Assembly (NCBI GenBank): GCA_004138175.2
Contig: RYFE02000032.1
Coordinates: forward strand, 1-63,847
Reading direction: 5' to 3'
DNA: 63,847 nucleotides
DNA from: Chloroflexales bacterium ZM16-3
GTDB taxonomy: Bacteria; Chloroflexota; Chloroflexia; Chloroflexales; Chloroflexaceae
The notes under the pieces were generated by a model. The model saw only the letters and a list, made by a program, of their open reading frames with translations. It ran no database searches and was not told the DNA's origin. Positions 18,941 to 45,115 of this stretch are shown here, piece after piece (the stretch's first letter is position 1; each line of letters starts with the position of its first letter). The position numbers and the translations under genes are program-made.

Positions 18941-19054
18941 GCAATAGAGCATAAGTAACGCTGTCACCCTGAGCGAAGCGAAGGGTCCCGGCCGGGATTC
19001 TTCGCTTCGCTCAGAATGACAGGACACCTCACAGCGTTACTTCTGCGGTATTGC
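18941..19054. mobile_element. 114-bp non-autonomous inverted-repeat element, copy 1
   Basis: The element runs from GCAATAGAGCATAAGTAACG to the inverted counterpart ending in GCGGTATTGC. Its 8-bp target duplication is CATAAAAG at 18933-18940 and 19055-19062. The core is itself a palindrome (CTGAGCGAAGCGAAG... and complement). It carries no gene. It interrupts IS3 orfB. Identical length and architecture recur at 19515 and 37591. Confidence 0.92.
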
Positions 19055-23528: not shown

Positions 23529-24692
23529 TCAGAGCTGATCTGGGTCGGCCTGAGTAGTCTCATCCTGCGGGAGCTGTTTCAGCGCCTCGTGCAGCCGGCG
23601 GGCGGTCGCCTCCAGATGGGCGCGGAGCTGGGCGGAGGCTCCCCCACGCAGCTCGTGAAACCGCGGTCGCGTGCGCGCCACCTGCGCATCGACACGCCCA
23701 AGCTGCTCCTGGAGCGACAGTACCCACCTGGGAGTAGGGGCAGGTGGCGTACTGCTCGCGGTGCGCTTCGCCCGCGCCACCACGCGGGCGATCGTCGGCC
23801 CATCCAGTTGCGGGCGCGTCTCCGCTGCCGCCTCATCCGCCGGGGCGATCAGACGACCCAGCTGTGCCAGTACCGTGTCCACATGCGCGGGCTGCAGCTC
23901 GCCGGCACGGGCTGCGGCGTGAAGTGGGCGCAGCTGCGTCTCGCGAAGCCTGAGCCGCGCCACCTGAACCTGCTGGTCGGCGGTGAACGTCGCGAGGCGC
24001 AGCAGCTCCTGCCGGCGTCCGCGGCTCATCTGGAAGCGCTCCTCGACCGCATCCCAGGGCGCATCGCCCAACGCCTGCTTCATCTGCTGGAGCGCCCACA
24101 CCCGCTCCATGTCGCTGAAGTCTACCCGCTCCTCATTCTCGGCATACTGGATGCGCACGCGGTCGGCCGCGCTCGGCGGATCGACGACAACGGCGTCAAT
24201 CTCGGCCATGCCGATCAGACGGGCGGCAGTCCAACGGCGGTGTCCGACCAGGATGTGGTAACGTGCGGCAGGCGCGACCGCGCTCTCGTCCGGGTAGACC
24301 ATGATCGGCTGGATCTGGCGATCCTGGATCGACCGCCCGAGATCGAGCAGCGACGCCACAAGATCCGCGTAGGCCGGGTTCGGAAGGCCCTGGATAAGCA
24401 GATCCTCAGGTGGCGGCAGCAGCCGAGCCTGGCGGGCCTCCGGTCGCTGCTCGGGCGAGATCGCGGCGAGAGGGAGTCGCTGCACAGCGCGCCCCTGCGC
24501 CACCTGATCGAGGGCCGCGATCCCGAAGTGTGCGTTGAGCTTCGCAGCTGGCGTATCCGCAGCAGCGACGGAAGGCTGGTCAGGGGCAGCCTCTCGCTGA
24601 GATTCGGGCGCAGGCTCAACTGCCGGGCGGTTCATCATGGCGGCAGCGCGCTCGCGCAGCTCCCGCATCTTCTCATTTGGCTTTGGCGGCAT
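23529..24692 (-). CDS. parB: ParB-family partition protein
   Basis: The 387-aa protein has a Pro/Ala-rich N-terminal tail. A ParB/RepB-type nuclease-like domain follows, with LVGHRRWTAARLIG and IQYAENEERVDFSDMER. A helix-turn-helix region lies around MSRGRRQELLRLATF, and a long Gln/Arg-rich, probably helical C-terminus ends the protein. The start ATG 24692 overlaps the parA stop (TGATG). It is unlike the short chromosomal Spo0J type, so plasmid or mobile-element partition is plausible. Its likely centromere is discussed at 25598. Confidence 0.88.
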   Translation of the reverse strand: MPPKPNEKMRELRERAAAMMNRPAVEPAPESQREAAPDQPSVAAADTPAAKLNAHFGIAALDQVAQGRAVQRLPLAAISPEQRPEARQARLLPPPEDLLIQGLPNPAYADLVASLLDLGRSIQDRQIQPIMVYPDESAVAPAARYHILVGHRRWTAARLIGMAEIDAVVVDPPSAADRVRIQYAENEERVDFSDMERVWALQQMKQALGDAPWDAVEERFQMSRGRRQELLRLATFTADQQVQVARLRLRETQLRPLHAAARAGELQPAHVDTVLAQLGRLIAPADEAAAETRPQLDGPTIARVVARAKRTASSTPPAPTPRWVLSLQEQLGRVDAQVARTRPRFHELRGGASAQLRAHLEATARRLHEALKQLPQDETTQADPDQL

Positions 24693-25501
24693 CACACCCT
24701 CCCATCCAGCACCATCAGCTCCTCGATCAGCTGAAGGAACAGCGCCCGCACCTCCGAGGCATCGGTGCCGGTATAGCGAAACACGCTCTGCTGCATGGCC
24801 GCCGAGTCGCGGAGCGCGGCGCGGATCGGAAAGACCGTCTGCGCCATCTGGACAGCGTAGTGATCATGCAGCAGCTGGTCGAAGACCCGATCCGCGTTGC
24901 TGCGCGGCGCGTACTTGTTGCGGACGATGCTGACCTGGAGGCCCTGGTTCACCCCGTTGGATTTGATCTGCTGCACTGAGGTCATCAGCGCCCGGAGCGC
25001 CCGCATCACCAGATCTTCGGGCTGGATGGGCACGAGGCAGCGGGTGGTGGCGGCGAGCGCCATCGCCAGCACCGGGCCGCGGGCCGGGGGGAGATCCAGA
25101 ATCACGATATCGTAGGTATTCGCCGCCCGCGCGAGCTCCGCGAAGACATGCTTGAGCAGGAAGAGCCCGCCCAGCGGCGCCGAGGTCAGCTGTGCGGGCA
25201 GCGACGCCATAAGGCTGTGGGCCGCCAGAATTGAGATGCCCTCCGGGGTGTCCCGCACGCGGCGGAGCACCGACGCCGCCGTCGCCCTATTCTGGATGGC
25301 GTCGTTCAGCACACCTAGCACGCTCTGGTCTGGGTGCAGAGACTCCGGATCGATCCCCAGCCAGTGGGTGGCGCTGGCCTGTGAGTCGAGATCGACCAAG
25401 AGCACCCGCAGGCCCAGCTGCTGGAATGCCGCAGCGATATTCACCGCGAGCGCCGTCTTTCCGCAGCCGCCCTTCTCCAGGCTGAGCGCATAGACATGCA
25501 T
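24692..25501 (-). CDS. parA: ParA-family partition ATPase
   Basis: This 269-aa ATPase has the deviant Walker A KGGCGKT at 10-16, DLDSQASAT as Walker A' and ILDLPPARG as Walker B. It would form nucleotide-dependent patterns on the nucleoid that move ParB-bound DNA. ATG 25501 has AAAGGAG upstream, and the Walker motif then lies at its usual N-terminal distance. It is translationally coupled to parB. There is no N-terminal DNA-binding extension, so this is a type Ib-like ParA and autoregulation may fall to ParB. Confidence 0.92.
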   Translation of the reverse strand: MHVYALSLEKGGCGKTALAVNIAAAFQQLGLRVLLVDLDSQASATHWLGIDPESLHPDQSVLGVLNDAIQNRATAASVLRRVRDTPEGISILAAHSLMASLPAQLTSAPLGGLFLLKHVFAELARAANTYDIVILDLPPARGPVLAMALAATTRCLVPIQPEDLVMRALRALMTSVQQIKSNGVNQGLQVSIVRNKYAPRSNADRVFDQLLHDHYAVQMAQTVFPIRAALRDSAAMQQSVFRYTGTDASEVRALFLQLIEELMVLDGRV

Positions 25502-25597
25502 GGCGAACGCTCCTTTAAATAGTTCTTGAAGTGCATATATGATACGAGAACGCACAGCTCGTGTCAACATATAGGGCGTCAGGACGCCAAAACACGC

Positions 25598-27459: not shown

Positions 27460-28440
27460 TCACGCATCCCGCACCTCCGCAGGGAAGAAGGGCACGTGGA
27501 TCTTCTCGGCGGCGCGCTGGCGGGCCTGCTCGCCGCGCCTATCATAGCGCGCCGTCGTCTCCACGCTGGCGTGGCCGACCAGCTGCTTGGCGGTAGCGAT
27601 ATCGATATCGGCGTCGAGCAGCTGCGAGATGTAGGTGCGCCGGAAGTCGTGCGGCGAGAGGTTGGCCACGCCGACCATCCCCGCGCGGCGCAGGAGGATG
27701 TGCAGCACGGCCTGGTCGGTGATCCGCCCGCCGCGCTGGCTGGGCCGCCGGTCGTAGGAGGTGAAGAGCGGCGCGTCGGCGGCCACCTCGCCGCGCGCGG
27801 CCAGCCATGCGGCGACGGCATGGCGGGTGCCGGCGGGCATGGGCACGCGGCGGGCCTTGCGCCCCTTGCCGAGCTGGACGAGCGCGCTGCCCTCGGCCAC
27901 GTCGCCCACATTGAGCGCGACGGCCTCGGCGCGGCGCAGGCCGCAGCCCAGCAGGATGGCGAAGAGGGCGGCGTCGCGCGCGCCCATGGGCGTGCCGTCG
28001 GCGCAGGCGCGCATGAGGGCCGCCTGCTCGCCGGGGGCCAGCATGCGCCCGCGCGGCATGCCCGCCCCCTTGACCGGCTTGAGGTCGCCTGCGGCCGCCG
28101 CTGCGTCAGCGCCCATCAAGCCGAGGCGGCGGCACGCGATGAGGGTGCCGCGCAGGGCCGACAGGTGCTTGTTGACGGTGGCGGGTGCCAACGCATCGAT
28201 CAGGCGGGCGCGCAGGGCGGCGGTGTGGGCGTAGGTGAGCCGCTCCCATGGGAGCAGCAGGGGGTCGGCGTCGGCCTGACCGGTGAGCAGATGGGCCATG
28301 GAGTCTAGGCAGGCGCGCATGGTGCGCCGGCTGTGGGGGCTGGGCAGGCTGGCCAGGTAGACCGCCGCCGGGCTGCGGGCCGGGTCGGCCCGCGCAACCG
28401 GGGACAGGGCGGTGTTGTCGTTTGGCACGATCTCGCTCAT
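27460..28440 (-). CDS. Tyrosine recombinase (XerC/integrase type)
   Basis: The 326-aa protein has a SAM-like N-terminal core-binding domain (~25-110) and a catalytic domain. The catalytic set is visible: R169 in GLRRAE, K192 in LGKGRK, H264 and R267 in SPHDFRR, H290 in VGHAS and Y299 in TARYD. It could act as a dimer-resolution or integration recombinase. The Shine-Dalgarno is weak (AGAGAGAG). No flanking attachment sites were recognised. With parAB, iterons and a primase in the window, it could be the resolution or integration function of a replicon. Confidence 0.92.
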   Translation of the reverse strand: MSEIVPNDNTALSPVARADPARSPAAVYLASLPSPHSRRTMRACLDSMAHLLTGQADADPLLLPWERLTYAHTAALRARLIDALAPATVNKHLSALRGTLIACRRLGLMGADAAAAAGDLKPVKGAGMPRGRMLAPGEQAALMRACADGTPMGARDAALFAILLGCGLRRAEAVALNVGDVAEGSALVQLGKGRKARRVPMPAGTRHAVAAWLAARGEVAADAPLFTSYDRRPSQRGGRITDQAVLHILLRRAGMVGVANLSPHDFRRTYISQLLDADIDIATAKQLVGHASVETTARYDRRGEQARQRAAEKIHVPFFPAEVRDA

Positions 28441-35277: not shown

Positions 35278-36012
35278 ATGAGCCAACCGACAGGCTACAT
35301 CCACTCGTACACCACCGGCTCTTCCCACGACGGGCCGGGGCTGCGCACCGTGGTCTGGACCACCGGATGCCACTATCGCTGCCAGTACTGCCACAACCCC
35401 GACACCTGGCACCTCAAGGGCGGCCATGAGGTGACAGTCGATTCCGTCGTTGCGGAGGTGGCGCGCCACGCGTCGTTCATGCGCTACACCGGGGGCGGCG
35501 TGACGATCAGCGGCGGCGAGCCCCTCGTGCAGGCACCCTTTGTGATGAGCGTACTGCGCGGCTGCAAAGAGCGGGGCATCCACACAGCCCTGGATACAAA
35601 CGGATTTTTCGGCGACCGGCTCAGCGATGATGAGCTGCGGCTGGCCGACCTCGTCCTGCTCGATATTAAGTCGTGGGACCCGGACACCCACCTGCGCGTT
35701 GCGGGGGTTGAGGTTGGCCCCACGCTGGCCTTTGCCCGCCGCCTCGCGGCACTTGCCCGCCCGGCGTGGGTGCGCTTCGTGCTCGTGCAGGGCCTCACCG
35801 ATGACCCGGCGAATATCGCGGGGCTGGCCGACTTTGTGGCCGGGCTACCCAACGTGGAGCGCGTCGAGGTGCTGCCCTTCCACCAGCTGGGGCGCGCCAA
35901 GTGGGAGCAGCTTGGCCGCGACTATCCCCTCGCCGACACCCAGCCCGCCACTGCCGAGGCGACCCTGCGCGCAGCCGAGATCTTCAGGGCCAGGGGGCTG
36001 CATACGATCTGA
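35278..36012 (+). CDS. pflA: Pyruvate formate-lyase-activating enzyme
   Basis: This 244-aa radical SAM enzyme makes the glycyl radical on PFL. The [4Fe-4S] motif is C31-x3-C35-x2-C38 (CHYRCQYC). The GGE motif (ISGGEPL) and a DTNGFF block follow, as in PflA. ATG 35278 has AGGA close upstream. It lies 245 bp after pflB with a strong RNA structure between, and is followed by a repeat. Confidence 0.95.
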   Translation: MSQPTGYIHSYTTGSSHDGPGLRTVVWTTGCHYRCQYCHNPDTWHLKGGHEVTVDSVVAEVARHASFMRYTGGGVTISGGEPLVQAPFVMSVLRGCKERGIHTALDTNGFFGDRLSDDELRLADLVLLDIKSWDPDTHLRVAGVEVGPTLAFARRLAALARPAWVRFVLVQGLTDDPANIAGLADFVAGLPNVERVEVLPFHQLGRAKWEQLGRDYPLADTQPATAEATLRAAEIFRARGLHTI

Positions 36013-36027
36013 GGCAGCTTGGATTCG

Positions 36028-36092
36028 ACGAACGACGAACGACCAATGACCAATCACGCCCCGTCGTTGATCATTGGTCGTTCGTCGTTCGT
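36028..36092. repeat. Inverted repeat of CGAACGACGAACGACC type
   Basis: The 22-bp arms 36028-36049 and 36071-36092 are perfect complements. Related sequences occur at 49423-49497 and 59461-59487. It is placed just after pflA, where it might end transcription, but the family is dispersed. Confidence 0.8.
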
Positions 36093-36543
36093 GTCTTCGC
36101 CACTCCCTGCTTCCCGACACACAAGCTGACCGTGATTGATACGTAACATGCATTCGCCAGCCGAGCATCTTGGGCAGACGCTGGCGGAGATGTCTCCAGA
36201 TCTGGCCCCGCCAGCGCGGACGCGAGCAGCATGGATGCTTGAGGAGGCGCATTCACCAGGACGGCCACGACATCGTGCATGCCGCACCTGTGCGCAGCAG
36301 TGAAAATTTCAAAGTGTCCCGGCCCCATGTCATGCTGTGCGCAGTGATGCGTTGACGATGCCCGTCACATCTGCTAGGCTTGTCGTCGATCAGGCACGAC
36401 GCATCACCGTGCATCAGTATCGGGAGACGCACCCCGACCTGCGCCAGGCCGCAGAGCGACGATCTCACCGACATGGTAGATGGTGGCCACGCGGCCGCGA
36501 CTCATACCTGGCCCCGCAAGCGCATGGCGAAGGAGCGCGCCCG
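36093..36543. other. Non-coding stretch before the ATP-binding regulator
   Basis: Open frames occur on both strands but none has a ribosome-binding site plus a recognisable domain. The region probably contains the promoter of the gene at 36544 and decayed sequence. Confidence 0.4.
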
Positions 36544-37587
36544 ATGAGCGACAGCCGGATTGACCTCCAGAGCCTCCAGACGATCGACAGCGTGCCCATT
36601 GATGGAACAGGCCCGGATCTGTTCGATATGGAGCGCGTGCGCGCCCACATCGAGGGCGCGATCAAGTGGCGGCGCCACACGGGCGACCCCGACCCCATCG
36701 CCTATCTCATCCAGCGCCGCTGCCTGGTGCAAGACGGCGAGGTTCTCCTGGCCACCCCCGCCGGGATCTTGGCCTTCGCACGAGAGCCGCAGCGCTTCTT
36801 CGCCGCCAGCGGCGTCCACCTGCTGCACTACCGTGGAACCCAACCAAACTCGCTAGAGGTTATCCACATCGAGCGCGCCATCGGAGGCACCATCTTCGAC
36901 CAGCTCGCGCGCATCGAAGAGTACCTCAACCATAACACCAAGCACGGCATGACCATCCAGAGCGGCTACGAGCGCGTAGATGTCCACGAGTACCCGCCGG
37001 TGGTGCTTCGCGAGCTGGGGGTGAATATGATCGCCCACCGCGACTACCGCGATCTTCACTCCTTCGCCAGCGTCAAGCTGTTCGCGGATCACATTGAGTG
37101 GATGAACCCAGGCGGCCTCCCCGAGGGAGTCACCATCGACCAGCTCCTCAACGTGCAGCGCAGCCGCAACCCCGCACTCTTCGCGCTGCTCTTCGACCGC
37201 GGCCTCATCGAGGGGGTAGGCCAGGGGCTCGACACCGTCGTCGAGACGCTCGCCCGCGAGAAGATGCAGCCCGCCGAGTTCGAGGACATCAACCACGCCT
37301 TCTTCGTCGCCCGCGTGCGCGGCCGGTCGATCGAGAATGTCTTCCAGCACGACGCCTACACACAGCTCAACGCGCGCCAGAAGCAGACTCTAGAGGTGAT
37401 CCGCGAGCGTGGCGAGGTGACCGTCAACGATTTGCGCGGCGTGCTCGGCTCCACGATAAGCGCGCGGCAGATCCTGCGCGACCTGAACCTCATGGTCGAC
37501 ATGGGGCTGATCGTCATCGTTGGCCGCTCGCGGAATACGCGCTACCGCATCGCAGGCCCGCCGCGTCTCCCGCGTCTCGAACCATAA
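36544..37587 (+). CDS. COG2865-like ATP-binding regulator lacking AlbA_2 domain
   Basis: The 347-aa protein has a central GHKL-type ATP-binding domain (HATPase_c_4) around residues 130-250, with ELGVNMIAHRDYRD as its N box. A winged-helix region lies at ~285-340 (VTVNDLRGVLGSTISARQ). Such proteins usually begin with an AlbA_2/Schlafen-like domain, which is absent. ATG 36544 has AAGGAGCG 9 nt upstream. Its stop codon lies inside the 8-bp target duplication of copy 3 of the 114-bp element, so the insertion just spared the frame. It lies next to the iteron region, so a role in replication control is possible but unproven. Confidence 0.75.
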   Translation: MSDSRIDLQSLQTIDSVPIDGTGPDLFDMERVRAHIEGAIKWRRHTGDPDPIAYLIQRRCLVQDGEVLLATPAGILAFAREPQRFFAASGVHLLHYRGTQPNSLEVIHIERAIGGTIFDQLARIEEYLNHNTKHGMTIQSGYERVDVHEYPPVVLRELGVNMIAHRDYRDLHSFASVKLFADHIEWMNPGGLPEGVTIDQLLNVQRSRNPALFALLFDRGLIEGVGQGLDTVVETLAREKMQPAEFEDINHAFFVARVRGRSIENVFQHDAYTQLNARQKQTLEVIRERGEVTVNDLRGVLGSTISARQILRDLNLMVDMGLIVIVGRSRNTRYRIAGPPRLPRLEP

Positions 37588-37590
37588 ACC

Positions 37591-37704
37591 GCAATACCGC
37601 AGAAGTAACGCTGTCACCCTGAGCGAAGCGAAGGGTCCCGGCCGGGATTCTTCGCTTCGCTCAGAATGACAAGCTCTCCCACAGCGCCACTTATGCGGTA
37701 TTGC
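37591..37704. mobile_element. 114-bp non-autonomous inverted-repeat element, copy 3
   Basis: It has the same 114-bp length, ends (GCAATACCGCAGAAG... and complement) and core as copies 1 and 2, with several base changes near its right end. Target duplication CATAAACC lies at 37583-37590 and 37705-37712. Confidence 0.92.
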
Positions 37705-37726
37705 CATAAACCTCCCTTTCTCGACA

Positions 37727-37791
37727 TTGCGTGACATCGTAATGTCGAGAAACGACCGCGCGCCATTGCGTGACATTACGATGTCACGCAA
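37727..37791. promoter_or_regulatory. Inverted ATGTCACGCAA sites, candidate Rep operator
   Basis: Three copies of the 11-mer lie here: 37727-37737 and 37766-37776 in reverse, and 37781-37791 forward. The last two face each other within a large perfect palindrome with 19-bp arms at 37758-37776 and 37781-37799, centre TACG. Inverted iterons typically act as the autoregulatory operator of an initiator gene; that role is inference. Confidence 0.65.
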
Positions 37792-37942
37792 TGGCGCGCA
37801 ACGGCCCGCACCCGGTGCGATGTAGACAATACCTGCGGGCATCGACACCATGCGGCCATGTCGAGCAATATATGCACCAGCCACTGTGCAGAAACCGCAT
37901 TAGGACGCGGTAAACAGCCCTGGCCAGCTTAACTGTGCCTAA

Positions 37943-38042
37943 TTGCGCGACATGACGGGGCAGCCCATGTCACGCAAACTACGATTCATGTCGCGCAAGT
38001 CATCGAAAAGTGTCACGCAACTATCTTGTGCATGTCACGCTA
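37943..38042. repeat. Iteron array, candidate replication origin
   Basis: Five further copies of ATGTCACGCAA lie here with at most one mismatch each. One is reversed at 37943-37953. Four are direct at 37967, 37988, 38010 and 38032, spaced 21, 22 and 22 bp (two helical turns). This is the geometry of iteron origins bound by a Rep protein. A less GC-rich stretch follows (38041-38300), then the primase/helicase-like gene. Binding and origin function are inferred. Confidence 0.7.
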
Positions 38043-38405
38043 AATTGCTATGCTAGGTGCAGTATCACATTCTCGATGATGGAGCACACGTCACGGCGAC
38101 ACGGCCATCACCACGGAAAATAACACAGTATTGCGGGCACGCAAAAGGCCCTCGACCCCTCTGCCGCCAAGCACTAGGTCGAAGGCCTCCCAAACGCAGC
38201 CCGCATACAGCATGGCTTTGTGTTGCCATTTTACTATAACAACTGCCGATCCCACTGTCAAGCCCTCCTGTTGATAGGGACGCGCGTTTCGTTTTTCTAA
38301 GCCAGATAACGCCCATAGCGGGGCCGTCTTGCCCATGTTGATCACCTCGGTCGATGTGGCGGGTTCGTGTCGCCAAAAAAGGGCCTGCTGGCAGGAGCAT
38401 CACCT

Positions 38406-41400
38406 GTGGACCCGTATCAGACCATCCCGACCATTCACCCGAGCCTGCCACCGCTCCGCCTCGTCAATCGGCGCACGCTAGAGCATGTCGGCGCATGCCC
38501 CTTCTGCGGCGGCGACCACCGCAGCGACCGCTTCCACGTCTGGATGGAGCCCGGCCACGAGCGCTTCTGGTGCCGCACCTGCGACGCCAAGGGTCCACTG
38601 AAGAAGCTGCTTGGCGAAGAGATCCGCCCGCAGACAATCACCACTCGCCAGAGCAAGCGGCACCCGGTCACCCTGGCCGACCCGGCCCACGTCGCCCACT
38701 ACCGCCAGATCTACGCCACCATCGCCCTGTGGGGGCACACCCTGCTGCTTGACGAGGCCAATCCCGAGCCGCTGGCCTACATCCGCCAGCGCGGTATCAC
38801 GGAGGCGATGATCGGCCACCAGCTGCTCGGCGTCACCCTGCGCGACCCCCAGGCTATCCCCGATCTGCTGCGCCGGGAGCTTCCCGAATTGCTCACCTAT
38901 GCCGAAGAGGCTGGTGTGCTCGTGCGCGACGGCGATCAGCTGCGCGCCCACCCCAACCTCTGCGGTGCCCTGCTCTTCCCCTACCTCGCCGATGGCGAGG
39001 TGGTCGACCTGCGCGCCCGCTCCTTCCCCGGCAAGGGCTACCGCTCGCTCCCCGGCGGCTACGCCGAGCGTGGCGCGATCTTCCCCTTCGGCTGGGACAG
39101 CCTCGACGGAGAGGATACCGTCATCCTCACCGAGGGCGAGTTCAAGGCCCTAGCCGTCACCCAGGCATACCGCGACGGGCGACTGAGCCTGCCCGCCCTG
39201 GCCCACCCCGGCCTGAGCTACATCCGCGAGGAGTGGGCCCAACAGCTTCAGGCCCGCGGCATCCGCACCGTCATCCTGGCCTACGACAGCGGCCCGCGCC
39301 CAACGAAAGACGGCGCGCTCCAGCTCGCCCCCGAGGAGACCTGGAGCATCCGCCATGGCCAGCGCCTGGCCGCCGCCGGGCTGGATGTGCGCGTGCTGCG
39401 CCTGCCGCTCGCCCCCGGCCAGCAGAAAGCCGACCTCGACGCCTTCCTGCTTGATCACAGTCCCGCCCAGCTCCAGCACCTGATCGACAGCGCGCCCAGC
39501 CTGCACGACTATCACCGCAGCCTGCCGCGATACCTGCTCCAGCAAGCAAAGATTCCCACGCCCGGCAGCTATCCGACCCGCCGGGCCCGGCCGCAGCGCC
39601 TAGCGGCGTCAGCCGCCCGCTCGGCCGCGCCACCGCCCAGCATCAGCCTGGAGCAGACCCGTGCCCAGATCGCCCAGATCGTGCAGCAGCACGCTACCGA
39701 CGGCCAGGGCTTCCTCATCCTCGCCCACGCCCCCGGCATCGGCAAGGGCCACAACACCACGGAAGGTCTGCGGGCACACCTGCGCAGCACCGAGTCCCCC
39801 GGCCAGATCGTCTGGACTGCCCCACGCAAGGCCCAGCTCCACGACCAGACCGGCCTTGACCTCATCCCGCTCCACGGGCGCAACGAAGGCAACTGCCATC
39901 GGCTAGCCGAGGCCCAGGCCCTGGCCGCCAAGGGCTACCCCGTGCGCCAGACGCTCTGTGAGCGCCGCTGCCCCTTCGTCGATCACTGTCCCTACCTGCG
40001 CCAGTTCGGCGTCGAGGCCGACCGCTTCGCCGCCCAACCGCTGCTGCTCGCCACCGGATGGTGGCAGGATGCCGGCGTGCTGGTGATGGACGAGTTCAAC
40101 CCGGCCCAGCTCACCAACCTCGTCACCCTCACCAGCGCCGACCTCGCCGCGATCGGGCGGAGCGCGGACTGCCCCCACGCCCAGGCAACCCTGCGCTGGC
40201 TGGGACAGATCCTCGGGGCAACCAGTGACCGCACCCTCACCGGAGGGCTGCTACTGCGCGAGCTGGAGACCGCCGCCCGCGCCGAGGGTCTCGCGCTGGC
40301 GGCCACCCTCAACGCCGCCGAGGCCAACCTGCCCGACGAGGCTCAGCAGGCGCTGCTGCCCGGCCTCCCCAACGGCGCGAGCCTGGCCGAGTTTAACGCC
40401 CTGCCACCCAACCACCTCGGCACAATCATCCGCCAGCTGGCCCGCGAGCAGCACCGCCACCTGAGCGGCACGCCGTTCACCAGCCGCCTAGAACTGGGCG
40501 GCGGCATACTGCGCCTCCTGCTGCGCCACACGCACCTGATCGCCCAGCTCGCCCAGCCCGCCCAGCCCAAGATCATCCTCGACGCCACCGTCAACACGCC
40601 GCTGCTCCAGGCGATCTTCCCCGACACGCCCATCCAGATCGAGCAGCCGCCCCGCGCCGACCAGGCCACCGTGATCCAGGTCATCTCCCGCGACTGGGCC
40701 AAGAGTACCCTGCGCGGCCAGCGCCGCGACCAGTGGTACGACGCAGTGGCGCAGCACATCCGGCCTGACCGACCAACCCTCGTGGTGTGCACGCTGGCCG
40801 CCGCAGACGACCTGCGGCGGGCGCTGGCCGCGCGCGGCCACCCCGATGTGGTCGTCGCCCATTATGGCGCACTGCGCGGCGCGAACGACTACAAGGGCCA
40901 CGACGTGATCCTGGCCCAGGTCTACCACCCCAACCTGGAGGCGATCACCCGCGCGGGCCGGGCGCTGTTCGCCGACGACGCCGAGGCGCTCGACGAGCGG
41001 ATCATCACCACCGACCGGGTGTTGGCGGACGCGAGTGGGGCACGCTGGGCGGTGCAGGTGCCGACCTTCGCCGACGCGCGGCTGGCAGCGCTGCTAGAGA
41101 GCCAGCGCGAGGCAGAGATGGTGCAGTGCGCGCTGCGCGGGCGACCGCTCGATCACCCAGACGTACAGATCACCCTGCTCTTTGGCCTGCCCATCCCCGG
41201 TCTGAGCCCAACCAAGATCCACGAGGATACGCCCTCGCGAATGAGCAACGGCGGGCGTCTCCAGCAGGCCCGCGAGACGCTAGCCGCGACGGCGCGCAGG
41301 CTGCTGGACAGCGGCGCACGGCTGATCGGCGTGGAGGAGTTAGCTCAGGCCAGCGGGGCCAGCGTAGTAACCGTGCGCAAGCACTTGGCCGCGGTGGCGG

Positions 41401-41705
41401 GCCGACTCGGGCTACGGCTGGTTCAACAGCGGCGGGTCGTGACGCTGCCGCAGGGCGGCGAGCGCGCCTACGAGCGCTGGGTGTTGATGCGGCGTGGGCG
41501 ACGGGTGCCACCGCGTAGCGAGCGGGATCTCCCCACCGATTATGCGCAACCTGCGGAGGGCACGGATCAGGCGCGTAATATGAATTCAATTATCCGCGTG
41601 ATCCGTTCTCCGGGTATGCGGCGATCACTGCTACGCGCACAGCACCGACGGTCGCTGAGCCGACGCAATTATCTGATGCGTAACCGATTTCATCTTCGCA
41701 CCTGA
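38406..41705 (+). CDS. Primase/helicase-like replication protein (zinc ribbon, TOPRIM, P-loop, HTH)
   Basis: This 1099-aa protein has a CHC2-like zinc ribbon with Cys 31, 34, 56 and 59. A TOPRIM-like region follows with E243 in LTEGEFKAL and AYDSGPRP further on. A P-loop variant APGIGKG (~441) and a Walker B-like VMDEFNP (~560) come next. A Cys cluster CERRCPFVDHC (~517) recalls the Fe-S motif of DinG/XPD helicases. A C-terminal helix-turn-helix lies around GVEELAQASGASVVTVRKHL. GTG 38406 was chosen for its AGGAG 9 nt upstream; GTG 38367 is an alternative. It is probably a mobile-element replication protein acting at the iterons upstream. Walker A lacks the usual Ser/Thr after Lys. Confidence 0.7.
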   Translation: MDPYQTIPTIHPSLPPLRLVNRRTLEHVGACPFCGGDHRSDRFHVWMEPGHERFWCRTCDAKGPLKKLLGEEIRPQTITTRQSKRHPVTLADPAHVAHYRQIYATIALWGHTLLLDEANPEPLAYIRQRGITEAMIGHQLLGVTLRDPQAIPDLLRRELPELLTYAEEAGVLVRDGDQLRAHPNLCGALLFPYLADGEVVDLRARSFPGKGYRSLPGGYAERGAIFPFGWDSLDGEDTVILTEGEFKALAVTQAYRDGRLSLPALAHPGLSYIREEWAQQLQARGIRTVILAYDSGPRPTKDGALQLAPEETWSIRHGQRLAAAGLDVRVLRLPLAPGQQKADLDAFLLDHSPAQLQHLIDSAPSLHDYHRSLPRYLLQQAKIPTPGSYPTRRARPQRLAASAARSAAPPPSISLEQTRAQIAQIVQQHATDGQGFLILAHAPGIGKGHNTTEGLRAHLRSTESPGQIVWTAPRKAQLHDQTGLDLIPLHGRNEGNCHRLAEAQALAAKGYPVRQTLCERRCPFVDHCPYLRQFGVEADRFAAQPLLLATGWWQDAGVLVMDEFNPAQLTNLVTLTSADLAAIGRSADCPHAQATLRWLGQILGATSDRTLTGGLLLRELETAARAEGLALAATLNAAEANLPDEAQQALLPGLPNGASLAEFNALPPNHLGTIIRQLAREQHRHLSGTPFTSRLELGGGILRLLLRHTHLIAQLAQPAQPKIILDATVNTPLLQAIFPDTPIQIEQPPRADQATVIQVISRDWAKSTLRGQRRDQWYDAVAQHIRPDRPTLVVCTLAAADDLRRALAARGHPDVVVAHYGALRGANDYKGHDVILAQVYHPNLEAITRAGRALFADDAEALDERIITTDRVLADASGARWAVQVPTFADARLAALLESQREAEMVQCALRGRPLDHPDVQITLLFGLPIPGLSPTKIHEDTPSRMSNGGRLQQARETLAATARRLLDSGARLIGVEELAQASGASVVTVRKHLAAVAGRLGLRLVQQRRVVTLPQGGERAYERWVLMRRGRRVPPRSERDLPTDYAQPAEGTDQARNMNSIIRVIRSPGMRRSLLRAQHRRSLSRRNYLMRNRFHLRT

Positions 41706-42040
41706 CAGATCTACGATCATATCGTACGGTAAGAAAAGCTTCGTGGAGACACGTGGCACGCCGATCTACGGCATCAAACGACCGCTGTGGATGGTCATGC
41801 TGGTGTTGGCGTTGTTGGCGAGCGGGTGCCCTATTCCGCCATCGTGTTTGCCTTCATGCTGCCCGAGTAGCAATTGCGGTTCTATTGTGTGTAAAAAGTG
41901 GCAATACCGCAGAAGTCACGTGGTACATCAATCCGCAATCTTGATTCTTCCGGTGCGCGGGTAGAGACGCCCCGCTGGGGCGTCTCTACGGCATTGGAGC
42001 GCGGTAGGTTATCCCCTGAAACAGAATTTCTGTCCGCCCT
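41706..42040. other. Repeat-bearing gap after primase gene
   Basis: A solo end of the 114-bp family (GCAATACCGCAGAAGTCACG) lies at 41901-41920 without partner or duplication. A GTAGAGACGCCCC palindrome lies at 41961-41989. A GTG-started frame at 41743-41964 has a lipoprotein-like start (LALLASGC) but weak initiation and runs into the solo end. It may be a truncated lipoprotein gene and is not called as real. Confidence 0.5.
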
Positions 42041-42130
42041 AACCGCTCCGAGGGAGAGAGGGAATCCCGCATCAGGATGCGCTCATCCCTCTTTACCCTG
42101 GTGGGAGAGAGGGCTGGAGGGTGAGGGCTG
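42041..42130. repeat. Dispersed CCCTCACCC-type repeat
   Basis: GAGGGAGAGAGGG ... GGGAGAGAGGGCTGGAGGG is the inverted counterpart of the sequence at 63668-63775 (CCCTCACCCCCAGCCCCC). Such repeats are widespread in bacterial intergenic DNA. Confidence 0.6.
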
Positions 42131-42400
42131 GGCTGCGGCAGATTCCTTGAGAGGGCAATCTGGGGACACGACACATATCTGACAGACAACTGCCCCGGAG
42201 CTTATACGGAGGCTGTCAAGGAGCGTGCGTGGGGCACTGAATCGAACCGTAGCGACTGTTATTCAAGGTGCAGCCCCATCACATATGCGCACAGGAGCGA
42301 ACCACAACCGACACAGAAAAAGCATAGATCTCCTCGCGCTCGGCGTATACGATGGGTGATAGCAACACGGTGTTCGGTCGTGAGCACAAGGGGGCCTTCT

Positions 42401-43624: not shown

Positions 43625-44008
43625 CTAGTGGCGCAGCGTGTCTGCTGTCGGTTGCCTCTGGTCTGTCGCCGTAGGATCGTCTACGGCCTCGTCACGCAGG
43701 CTCACCAGTAAGAGGTCAAGCACACGTGGGAGGAGGTCAGGGCGTCGCTCCAGAAGGCTAAGAATGGTCTGTAATCCTTCATTGGCGTAGACACCGGGGA
43801 GGAAGATGGTTGCCGGGCGACCGAGCAGATGGGCAGCCTGTATCAGCGTGCTGACCGACATACTCCGCGTGCCATGCTCATAGCGGGCGATCGTTGAGCG
43901 ATCAACCCCCATCTGCTCCGCGAGATCGTCCTGCCGCAACCCCCGCGACAGCCGAGCGGAACGCAAGGCGTTGCCTACCTGGGCGTCAACCTGGGCGGGA
44001 TCGGTCAT
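43625..44008 (-). CDS. XRE-family helix-turn-helix regulator
   Basis: The 127-aa protein has an HTH_3 domain at ~12-65 (LRQDDLAEQMGVDRSTIARYEHG) and an unrecognised acidic tail. Its ATG overlaps the stop of the antirepressor gene by 4 bp (ATGA), so the two are coupled. It is the likely ligand of the four operator repeats upstream of the operon. It resembles prophage or mobile-element repressors. Confidence 0.9.
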   Translation of the reverse strand: MTDPAQVDAQVGNALRSARLSRGLRQDDLAEQMGVDRSTIARYEHGTRSMSVSTLIQAAHLLGRPATIFLPGVYANEGLQTILSLLERRPDLLPRVLDLLLVSLRDEAVDDPTATDQRQPTADTLRH

Positions 44009-44763
44009 AGCAAGCTCTCCTGGAGTGGTGGCAGCGCATCTGGGTCATCAGGCAGGTAGGTTCGCGCTGTCTGTCCTAGCCACCTCAGCGCCTGTTCATA
44101 CTTTGATTCGGGCAGCGCATCGTAGCGCGGTGTGCCCAGGTCGATGCAGAACTGAGCGAAGAGCTTGCCGAAGATGTCGCGTCCCTCCCGCAGCTCATAG
44201 CGTTTTGCGATGCGCTTTATTGACCGCTGGATATATTCAGCCTGTGTCGCGCTGACAGGGGTACGTTGCTGGATGTCGCCCACAATCTCCTCGACGATGC
44301 TGATGCGCCGCTCGTGGTTGATCTGGGCGTCTAGCAGGCGGCGAATATCGGCGAGCGCCTCGTCAATCCGCTGCTGCGCTGGGGTCGTCGGCACGTCGGA
44401 GCTGCGTAGGTAGATCTGGGCCAGCACATCGACCAGCTCGGTCTGGTACTGCACCAGCTTTGGGCGTACCGCCTCGCTCACCTGATGTGGCGAGATAGTC
44501 GCGAGCCAGAAGGGGATGTATTTGTGGAGCAGCACCGCGATCTCTCGTGCTTGTCCATCGATGGGCACGCGATCTTTGCGCAGCCCTTGTCGTAGCACCT
44601 CGTGACGGCGGATTCGTTCGCTCTGGCTCTTGAGGTCGAGTCCTAGCACCGCGCAGATGGTACGCACGGGCACTGCCATGCCCTCGCCGGGGCGGTACAC
44701 AGAGAGCAGCGTATCGCCTTCAAACGCGATCTCTTGATATTTCTCTGGTGGGAGCAGATTCAT
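44005..44763 (-). CDS. Phage antirepressor N-terminal domain protein
   Basis: This 252-aa protein begins with a P22_AR_N-like domain (EGDTLLSVYRPGEGMAVPVR, then CAVLGLDLKSQSERIRR). The middle and C-terminal regions are helical and charged; the end (IAKRYELREGRDIFGKLFAQF) resembles phage ORF6C-type domains. ATG 44763 has AAAGGG 7-8 nt upstream. Antirepressors bind or titrate repressors; here it is co-transcribed with an XRE protein. No other phage structural genes are seen. Confidence 0.82.
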   Translation of the reverse strand: MNLLPPEKYQEIAFEGDTLLSVYRPGEGMAVPVRTICAVLGLDLKSQSERIRRHEVLRQGLRKDRVPIDGQAREIAVLLHKYIPFWLATISPHQVSEAVRPKLVQYQTELVDVLAQIYLRSSDVPTTPAQQRIDEALADIRRLLDAQINHERRISIVEEIVGDIQQRTPVSATQAEYIQRSIKRIAKRYELREGRDIFGKLFAQFCIDLGTPRYDALPESKYEQALRWLGQTARTYLPDDPDALPPLQESLL

Positions 44764-44778
44764 GGCGAACCCTTTTAT

Positions 44779-44934
44779 ATGTGCCGGAGAGTCACACCTA
44801 CCGTAGCACGAGCGTACTGATCTGTCAAGCGTGACTCTCTGGCACACATGATGGGCCATCTGCCCACCAATATGTGCCAGAGAGTCACGTAGCAAGGGGA
44901 GGATGGCCTCCGCTGCGTGACTCTCTGGCACATA
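44779..44934. promoter_or_regulatory. Four operator-like repeats TGTGCCAGAGAGTCAC
   Basis: Copies lie at 44779-44795 (forward, one change), 44831-44849 (reverse), 44871-44889 (forward) and 44916-44934 (reverse). The last two form an inverted pair extending to CCAATA/TATTGG (44867-44938). They cover the promoter region of the antirepressor-XRE operon. The pattern is that of a cooperative repressor operator. Which of the two proteins binds is inference. Confidence 0.8.
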
Positions 44935-44958
44935 TTGGTGGGGTTCAGCCGACGTGGT

Positions 44959-44983
44959 AAAGACGCCCCGCCGGGGCGTCTTT
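44959..44983. repeat. AAAGACGCCCC palindrome
   Basis: A perfect palindrome of the same family as 32493 and 41961; like 41961 it is followed by CGGCATTG. It is dispersed repeat DNA. Confidence 0.75.
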
Positions 44984-44991
44984 CCGGCATT

Positions 44992-45115
44992 GCTCATCCC
45001 CAACTAGCGTGCAAAGCGCACGTGTGTTTGATGATTCTGGCGCGCGGCGTGGGCGTCCTGAAGAAAAACACGCTTGTTCGCTTTTTAAGAGGTTGCACGC
45101 TAGTTGGGGATGAGC
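44992..45115. repeat. 124-bp element with perfect 23-bp terminal inverted repeats
   Basis: The arms 44992-45014 and 45093-45115 are exact complements (GCTCATCCCCAACTAGCGTG plus CAA). No target duplication and no coding frame are evident. It could be a third non-autonomous element type or a large stem-loop. From 45116 to 45249 I see nothing. Confidence 0.65.

Follow-up and report, generated by a model that had tools for sequence, protein, structure and literature searches.

A clustered repeat array before a primase-type gene of a Chloroflexales bacterium: probable operators of an upstream ATPase-winged helix protein

Results

Genes and repeats of the locus

The window, i.e. the whole stretch of 63,847 nucleotides from Chloroflexales bacterium ZM16-3 analysed here, is one entire contig (C54) out of the 127 in a draft genome, and its relevant features are collected in Table 1. 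An array of short repeats lies between the gene of a putative regulator (the 36544 protein) and a replication-type gene (the 38406 gene). Within 316 bp there are eight copies of the 11-mer ATGTCACGCAA with at most one mismatch, as an earlier note on this DNA had counted, and these are eight of the nine such matches in the window; in 30 dinucleotide-shuffled windows there was never more than one copy per 316 bp. The last four copies are direct repeats with the spacing that the note had given, and the palindrome it described is also there, with two 19-nt arms (37758-37776 and 37781-37799) that are 100% complementary across a 4-nt gap. Two extra copies with two mismatches lie within the array, at 37791 (plus strand, overlapping the 37781 copy) and at 37858 (plus strand). 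When two mismatches were allowed across the whole window there were 20 matches against a mean of 14.68, which is not unusual; the signal of the array is therefore its clustering.

Table 1. Coordinates of genes, repeats and predicted signals in the window
Feature	Position	Strand	Remarks
ParB-like gene (PF02195)	23529..24695	-	
ParA-like gene (PF13614)	24692..25570	-	12.8 kb upstream of the primase-type gene
Tyrosine recombinase (PF00589)	27460..28440	-	
Regulator gene, 347 aa	36544..37587	+	PF13749 HATPase_c_4 (RecG C-terminal-like) and C-terminal winged helix; proposed to bind the array
Dispersed repeat with inverted ends, outside the array	37591..37704		Arms 37591-37614 / 37681-37704; between regulator gene and array
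Inverted-repeat part of array	37714..37804		Copies 37727 (-), 37766 (-), 37781 (+); palindrome 37758-37799
Two-mismatch array copy ATGTCGAGCAA	37858..37868	+	Same as the commonest motif of Chloroploca locus L044
Array copy ATGTCGCGCAA	37943..37953	-	
Four direct repeats	37967..38042	+	Starts 37967, 37988, 38010, 38032; 21/22/22 bp apart
Predicted promoter of replication-type gene	38026..38054	+	-35 TTGTGC 38026-38031; -10 TATGCT 38049-38054
Predicted antisense RNA, ~85 nt	38140..38226	-	Complementary to leader of replication-type gene; both ends are estimates
Hairpin and T run of predicted antisense RNA	38143..38187	-	Apex TGC-TTGGCG-GCA
Predicted antisense promoter	38233..38261	-	TTGACA-N17-TATAGT
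Replication-type gene, 1099 aa	38406..41705	+	DnaG-like primase N-terminus
Xre-type HTH gene and P22_AR_N/ORF6C antirepressor-like gene	43625..45003	-	

Across the 6.27-Mb genome the 11-mer is matched 45 times when up to one mismatch is allowed, compared with 16 times for a reversed-pattern control, and it has five exact copies. The earlier note had named a dispersed repeat as the finding that would speak against it; the genome count and the shuffles led us to reject this for the array, as the copies cluster and four of the five exact copies in the genome lie here. The sole exact copy outside the array is at G000:C73:156163. A dispersed repeat does occupy the space between the regulator gene and the array: its 16-bp end has 300 matches in the genome (up to two mismatches) compared with 1 for the reversed control. 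The ends of this repeat, GCAATACCGCAGAAGT, are also present at 19039, 19613, 41901 and 63814 in the window, and many pairs about 107 bp apart among the matches listed suggest a MITE-like family. A search of 36000-42400 against Rfam at E up to 1 gave only two matches, both to microRNA models, far below the cut-off and lying on inverted repeats.

The replication-type gene and the regulator

The earlier note took the next gene to be primase/helicase-like. The primase part of this holds (phrog_47 DNA primase, E 1.4e-15); the helicase part was confirmed by none of the libraries, the only match being a weak one to phrog_239 'DNA primase/helicase' at residues 187-258. In ten sequences the columns C31/C34/C56/C59, E243 and D294 are invariant, as are G444/G446/K447 and D562/E563, which by eye look like a helicase-like ATPase. 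No Pfam family, RepC included, matched the protein at 0.001, and a single-sequence structure prediction was unusable (mean pLDDT 39). The same genome has the primase-type gene in three further places, one of them a fragment, and the protein was matched in 15 of the 61 genomes examined, its own included; searches of plasmid and phage records at E 1e-5 gave no match. Membership of the CyRepA1 family was considered and rejected, because the protein did not match NF042913 at E up to 10, a model on which CyRepA1 of Synechocystis scores 595.8 bits; a profile comparison between CyRepA1 and the 38406 protein gave a probability of 1.4%.

The regulator belongs to HATPase_c_4 by its score at residues 176-255 (Pfam E 3.9e-16; 59.3 bits against a gathering score of 26), and from the label of this domain we take it to be a GHKL-type ATPase. 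A structure model built from 22 sequences reached a mean pLDDT of 81. Its best match in the PDB was 3lmm, with a TM of 0.58 over the query and an rmsd of 15, the placement of the domains being different; further, shorter matches were to ArsR-type regulators and GHKL kinases. Our placement of the winged helix at the C-terminus is based on the sequence and on a weak match of residues 281-339 to an ArsR-type profile, rather than on structural alignment ranges. PADLOC models match parts of the regulator (the best at E 7.4e-16, residues 59-247, being an Argonaute-associated model, with weaker ones extending to the C-terminus) and none of them matches the primase-type protein; a defence system was not adopted as the main reading. 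The window also holds two exact TTATCCACA DnaA boxes, one of which lies inside the regulator gene at 36860-36868 and may be there by chance.

Arrays in related loci

Forty-three loci that encode a relative of the regulator, the window among them, were read, and the best 9-mer was counted over as much as 1000 bp downstream of the regulator gene; the count exceeded that of all 20 shuffles in 29 of the 43. The set of 31 array loci used below was made from these 29 by dropping two by eye (L119 and L129, where the sites are scattered) and adding by eye four that had failed the shuffle test (L107, L125, L135 and L136), the remaining 12 loci being those without an array. By eye, the order is inverted or tandem copies first and direct repeats next. 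One Chloroploca array (L107, on G030:C161) appears, again by eye, to be interrupted after the first inverted pair by an inserted small-transposon-like gene.

The 31 loci carry 23 different 10-bp motifs, with TGGCGCGGTT common to six loci and TGGCGCGAGA to four. Examples are TGTCACGCAA in the window, TGTCGAGCAA in Chloroploca and TGTCGTTTAT in Oscillochloris ZM17-4; others among the related loci are TGTCGCATTT, TTGCACTTAA and TTGCCGATAA. Counting copies of the respective motif with at most one mismatch, we found 181 within 500 bp downstream of the regulator gene, 2 within 500 bp upstream and 12 in the gene itself, so that the regulator seemingly does not act just upstream of its own gene in this way. 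Motifs within one genome were not significantly more different than chance (0 of 36 pairs identical versus 1.6 expected, P 0.16), and we therefore rejected the idea that addresses differ significantly between the loci of one genome.

The genes downstream of the arrays fall into four families that have no BLAST link at 1e-6, i.e. I (9 loci), II (9), III (8) and IV (3), with L107 and L116 left unassigned. Family III is the primase type. DnaA_N is above the Pfam cut-off in five of the six family II proteins scanned, and L111 and L114 pass for DnaD_N, which makes a role of family II in replication initiation likely. No Pfam match was found for family I (four of nine scanned) or family IV (one of three scanned), whose position would suggest a replication-type role. 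A locus without an array, L138, precedes what by eye is a DnaB-like helicase.

Which protein the motif tracks

We compared distances between array motifs with distances between proteins in Mantel tests on the 31 loci, with motif consensuses picked by hand. Loci whose motifs differed more also had more different winged helices (r 0.51, P 2e-4), and this correlation remained given the rest of the regulator (r 0.33, P 4e-4). The rest of the regulator given the winged helix did not correlate significantly (r 0.10, P 0.18); uncorrected it also correlates with the motif (r 0.42, P 2e-4), and shared ancestry inflates such correlations. There was no correlation with the family of the downstream gene (r 0.01, P 0.40, 29 loci). 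The recognition-helix segment of 16 residues, taken by itself and corrected for the rest, gave a borderline value (r 0.18, P 0.057). When only the repeat nearest the promoter was used, also picked by hand (27 loci), the outcome was upheld, the corresponding values being r 0.29, P 0.009 versus r 0.08, P 0.26. These results are strong but not final evidence that the array motif follows the winged helix of the regulator and not the downstream gene family, because the motifs were read by hand and the loci are related sequences.

The primase-type genes allow a second comparison. A primase-type sequence is present in 19 loci, nine of them with a regulator hit. In all eight cases where the regulator lies just upstream of the primase-type gene there is an array; in the ninth, L036, the regulator lies elsewhere, before another gene, and has its own array there. 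The primase-type genes without a regulator had a clustered array in none of the eight tested, L033 and L042 (no regulator hit, parts of genes only) being excluded; one of these eight, L035, exceeds its shuffles by one, with scattered sites. By eye, other small DNA-binding proteins (Xre-like, excisionase-like) or repeats precede the primase-type genes of L035, L037, L039, L047 and L040. Since primase-type genes occur with other DNA-binding proteins upstream, the control module appears to be exchangeable.

These comparisons bear on the plan that the earlier note had proposed, i.e. that of an iteron plasmid. In iteron plasmids such as R6K, pSC101 and P1, direct repeats about two helical turns apart, with inverted repeats nearby, are bound by the initiator. 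Applied to the window, the 38406 protein would bind the direct repeats, melt the DNA and start replication, and the inverted pair would be its own operator. The phased direct repeats do adjoin a replication-type gene, the contig does carry ParA/ParB, and exact DnaA boxes are present in 4 of the 31 array regions compared with 0.04 expected, which hints at an origin close to some of the arrays. However, the motif bears no relation to the downstream gene family, the same kind of array stands before four unlinked families, no clustered array was seen at the eight tested primase-type genes that lack the regulator, and the window's own array contains no DnaA box and no stretch rich in AT (AT 0.33-0.53 per 60 bp over 37561-38460). 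We regard a classical iteron origin as very unlikely. What survives of the plan is its link to plasmid-type replication, through the replication-type gene, ParA/ParB and the shared layout; initiator-bound iterons are unsupported because the motif tracks the regulator, the repeats lie on a predicted promoter (see below) and no clustered array was found without the regulator. The inverted pair may well be an operator, as the note had it, but this seems to extend to the entire array, with the upstream protein rather than the initiator as its binder.

The array could also combine both functions, as operators and as a regulatory part of the origin, with the regulator in addition blocking or pairing origins (handcuffing). 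This overlaps with the operator reading, and with as many as 10 sites in 500 bp at a locus there are more than a simple operator would need; the DnaA boxes of the four loci fit it as well. Nothing places an origin at the array, though, and the eight primase-type genes exist without a clustered array, which leaves this an unlikely extension.

Geometry of the predicted promoter

The last repeat fills the 17-bp spacer (38032-38048) of the predicted promoter of the replication-type gene, and the same geometry was aligned in 27 of the 31 array loci (L031, L107, L131 and L136 were excluded). A TAnnnT element follows 15-16 nt after the start of the last repeat in 27/27 loci, which alone proves little because the repeat was picked with the -10 box in view. 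A TTG exactly 17 bp further up, a feature that was not used in choosing the repeat, is present in 23/27. Measured from the promoter repeat, the first spacing is 22-23 bp in 25 of the 26 loci with a value, the second is 21-22 bp in 23/26 and the third is 21-22 bp in 14/24, ties having been resolved towards 22.

A regulator bound at these sites might activate the promoter instead of repressing it. In phase with the promoter repeat, extra sites precede it by about 22, 44 and 65 bp, and the -35 boxes are often weak past the TTG, both of which would suit an activator. A site located in the spacer, as aligned in 27 loci, is nevertheless unusual for one: activators seldom bind inside the -35/-10 spacer, MerR proteins being the exception. 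Activation therefore seems improbable to us, and repression is the action that we assume for the regulator below.

Predicted antisense RNA

A search for TTGACN-N16-18-TANNNT between the promoter and the gene found this element on the opposite strand in 20 of the 27 loci and on the sense strand in 1 of 27, with 0.14 expected. The strict antisense promoter is missing in L044, L108, L113, L114, L116, L117 and L118, among which L044 has a regulator 68% identical to that of the window; it was not found either in L031, which holds the nearest paralogue of the primase gene and is outside the 27.

The antisense promoter is followed by a GC-rich hairpin, often with a T run. We located 18 such hairpins and aligned 16, leaving out the divergent L036 and L130; the stem has 11 pairs, five of which are changed on both sides. 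The hairpins had been chosen on the antisense strand, though not by their G-U cells, and on this strand 172 of 174 cells of the stem are paired compared with 148 of 174 on the sense strand, with 24 G-U cells against none. The antisense strand gave the more stable fold in 15 of the 16. The UUGGCG loop presumably resembles the loops of ColIb-P9/R1-type antisense systems; a literature search on the letters of this loop found no paper. YUNR loops are a known feature of antisense control by loop-loop contact (PMC4485353).

Proposed control of replication

We propose that the array is a set of operators through which the 36544 protein represses the promoter of the 38406 gene, with an antisense RNA as backing, and from these computed features we give this a probability of about 0.7. 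The GHKL-type ATPase with its winged helix would bind the array, where direct repeats two helical turns apart would place several copies of it side by side on one face of the DNA. The last bound copy would lie within the -35/-10 spacer and so exclude RNA polymerase, and the upstream inverted pairs might anchor or loop the regulator-DNA complex. The antisense RNA of about 85 nt, if transcribed, would pair with the leader of about 345 nt (its start being estimated), so that less replication protein would be made. Together, regulator and antisense RNA could set the frequency of replication and give replicons separate control addresses. The earlier note was thus right in its observation and in the setting it gave to it; what it described is probably a repressor-operator array with an antisense RNA instead of iterons.

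The closest known logic, by analogy, is that of pIP501 and, for the type of gene, that of pSYSA (PMC4981023; PMC9978351). CopR and antisense RNAIII control repR in pIP501, where the repressor gene is also upstream, the operator lies upstream of and overlaps the rep promoter, a convergent antisense RNA lies in the leader and this leader is 329 bp long (PMC4981023). At the window, the geometry of the 27 aligned loci would put repressor sites over the promoter, and the predicted antisense promoter with its strand-biased hairpin would put an antisense RNA in the leader. The repressor differs: by its domains the regulator is of the HATPase_c_4 and winged helix kind, not of the CopR kind, and CopR is a small protein that binds as a dimer to two consecutive sites (PMC4981023) compared with a protein of 347 residues and eight or more sites here. 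The replication protein of pIP501 is also of another kind. pMV158 similarly combines a transcriptional repressor, CopG, with an antisense RNA, RNAII, on the rep mRNA, but it has a rolling-circle RepB, a 48-nt RNA, another repressor and loops without the U-turn motif (PMC4485353). The pSYSA plasmid of Synechocystis has, like the system predicted for the window, a replication protein with primase/helicase domains (CyRepA1) and an antisense RNA (asRNA1) just upstream; there the antisense RNA overlies a small reading frame, and a repressor array is not mentioned in the part of the source available (PMC9978351). Unlike CyRepA1, the window's protein has no match to the curated CyRepA1 model.

The phased direct repeats, with 21/22/22 bp here and 22-23 and 21-22 bp in most relatives, and the accompanying inverted repeats are a likeness to iteron plasmids; unlike the sites of a Rep initiator, however, the window's repeats follow a separate upstream regulator, as judged from the motif comparisons. 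In repABC replicons an antisense RNA precedes the initiator gene. These are large low-copy replicons with partition genes (PMC3155836), which is a further likeness. Unlike in repABC, ParA/ParB are not directly upstream of the primase-type gene but at the distance given in Table 1, and the product of that gene has no Pfam match, RepC included. Searches of the open-access literature listed no description of replication control in this bacterial group, of this regulator class on plasmids, or of a repressor class with varied repeat addresses.

If the operator reading is true, an ATPase-type repressor joins the proteins that set plasmid replication. Each of the 31 loci would then be a natural pairing of a winged helix with its DNA address (23 motifs in all), from which a recognition code might be read, contigs that are unassigned in draft genomes of this order would be marked as possible separate replicons, and the modules would provide parts for vectors in hosts that have few. 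A wider scheme, which is possible though doubtful, is that the repressor is switched by ATP and forms a phased filament on the replication promoter (perhaps joining origins), acting with the antisense RNA and an antirepressor, and that coexisting large replicons of one cell each have a separate address, which could be exchanged along with the regulator whether or not the replication protein changes too.

Replicon setting and distribution

ParA was found in the fetched flanks, which are of unequal length, of 21 of the 31 array loci compared with 2 of the 12 others, and P22_AR-like genes in the flanks of 15/31 compared with 2/12. The window's genome has relatives of ParA on 9 of its 127 contigs and the array-type regulator on five, four of which also carry ParA (C54, C65, C34 and C71, not C86). 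No overlapping ends were found in the 23 contigs examined (the window, 20 by their ends and two whole), and none of the contigs is visibly circular.

The antirepressor-like genes raise the question of a lysogeny-type switch on an integrated element, in which the regulator would act as immunity repressor, the P22_AR-like protein would counter it as antirepressor, and the array would be the immunity operator ahead of a replication module. This is partly compatible with the operator reading, and the P22_AR-like genes, the tyrosine recombinase at 27460 and the spread of paralogues over several contigs are consistent with it. The prevalence of ParA in the flanks argues against it, as do the searches of phage records, which gave no match to the primase at E 1e-5 or to the regulator at E 1e-15, and of viral contigs, where the 25 matches of the regulator were at most 37% identical and over part of it only; moreover, no phage structural family was found among 40 scanned proteins of the window and related loci. 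We consider such a switch distinctly unlikely, and the operators of a plasmid-type control system remain our preferred reading.

A comparison with the nearest genome, G004 (Oscillochloris sp. ZM17-4), is consistent with exchange of the control module. The window from 11.7 to 63.5 kb and contig C35 of G004 share collinear blocks at about 80-94% identity. The primase gene of that contig lacks residues 243-701 through an internal deletion, and on the same contig a family I gene and ParB/ParA are preceded by a different regulator that has a different motif. This looks like one control module swapped for another. Both flanking genes that were tested map to other contigs of G004, and we found no clean empty site.

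Among 21 loci, the regulator occurs in Oscillochloris, 'Ca. Chloroploca', 'Ca. Viridilinea' and MAGs called Chloroflexaceae, Chloroflexales, Herpetosiphonaceae and Roseiflexaceae, together with MAGs labelled simply 'bacterium'. Plasmid records gave one distant match at 1e-20. At 1e-25 it was matched in 71 genomes among 120 relatives, a count that includes a longer type without an array. In a stricter profile search at 1e-60 over 400 genomes sampled from the phylum, 10 genomes matched, seven of them in the window's family (its own genome included) and three with the longer type, as judged by frame length.
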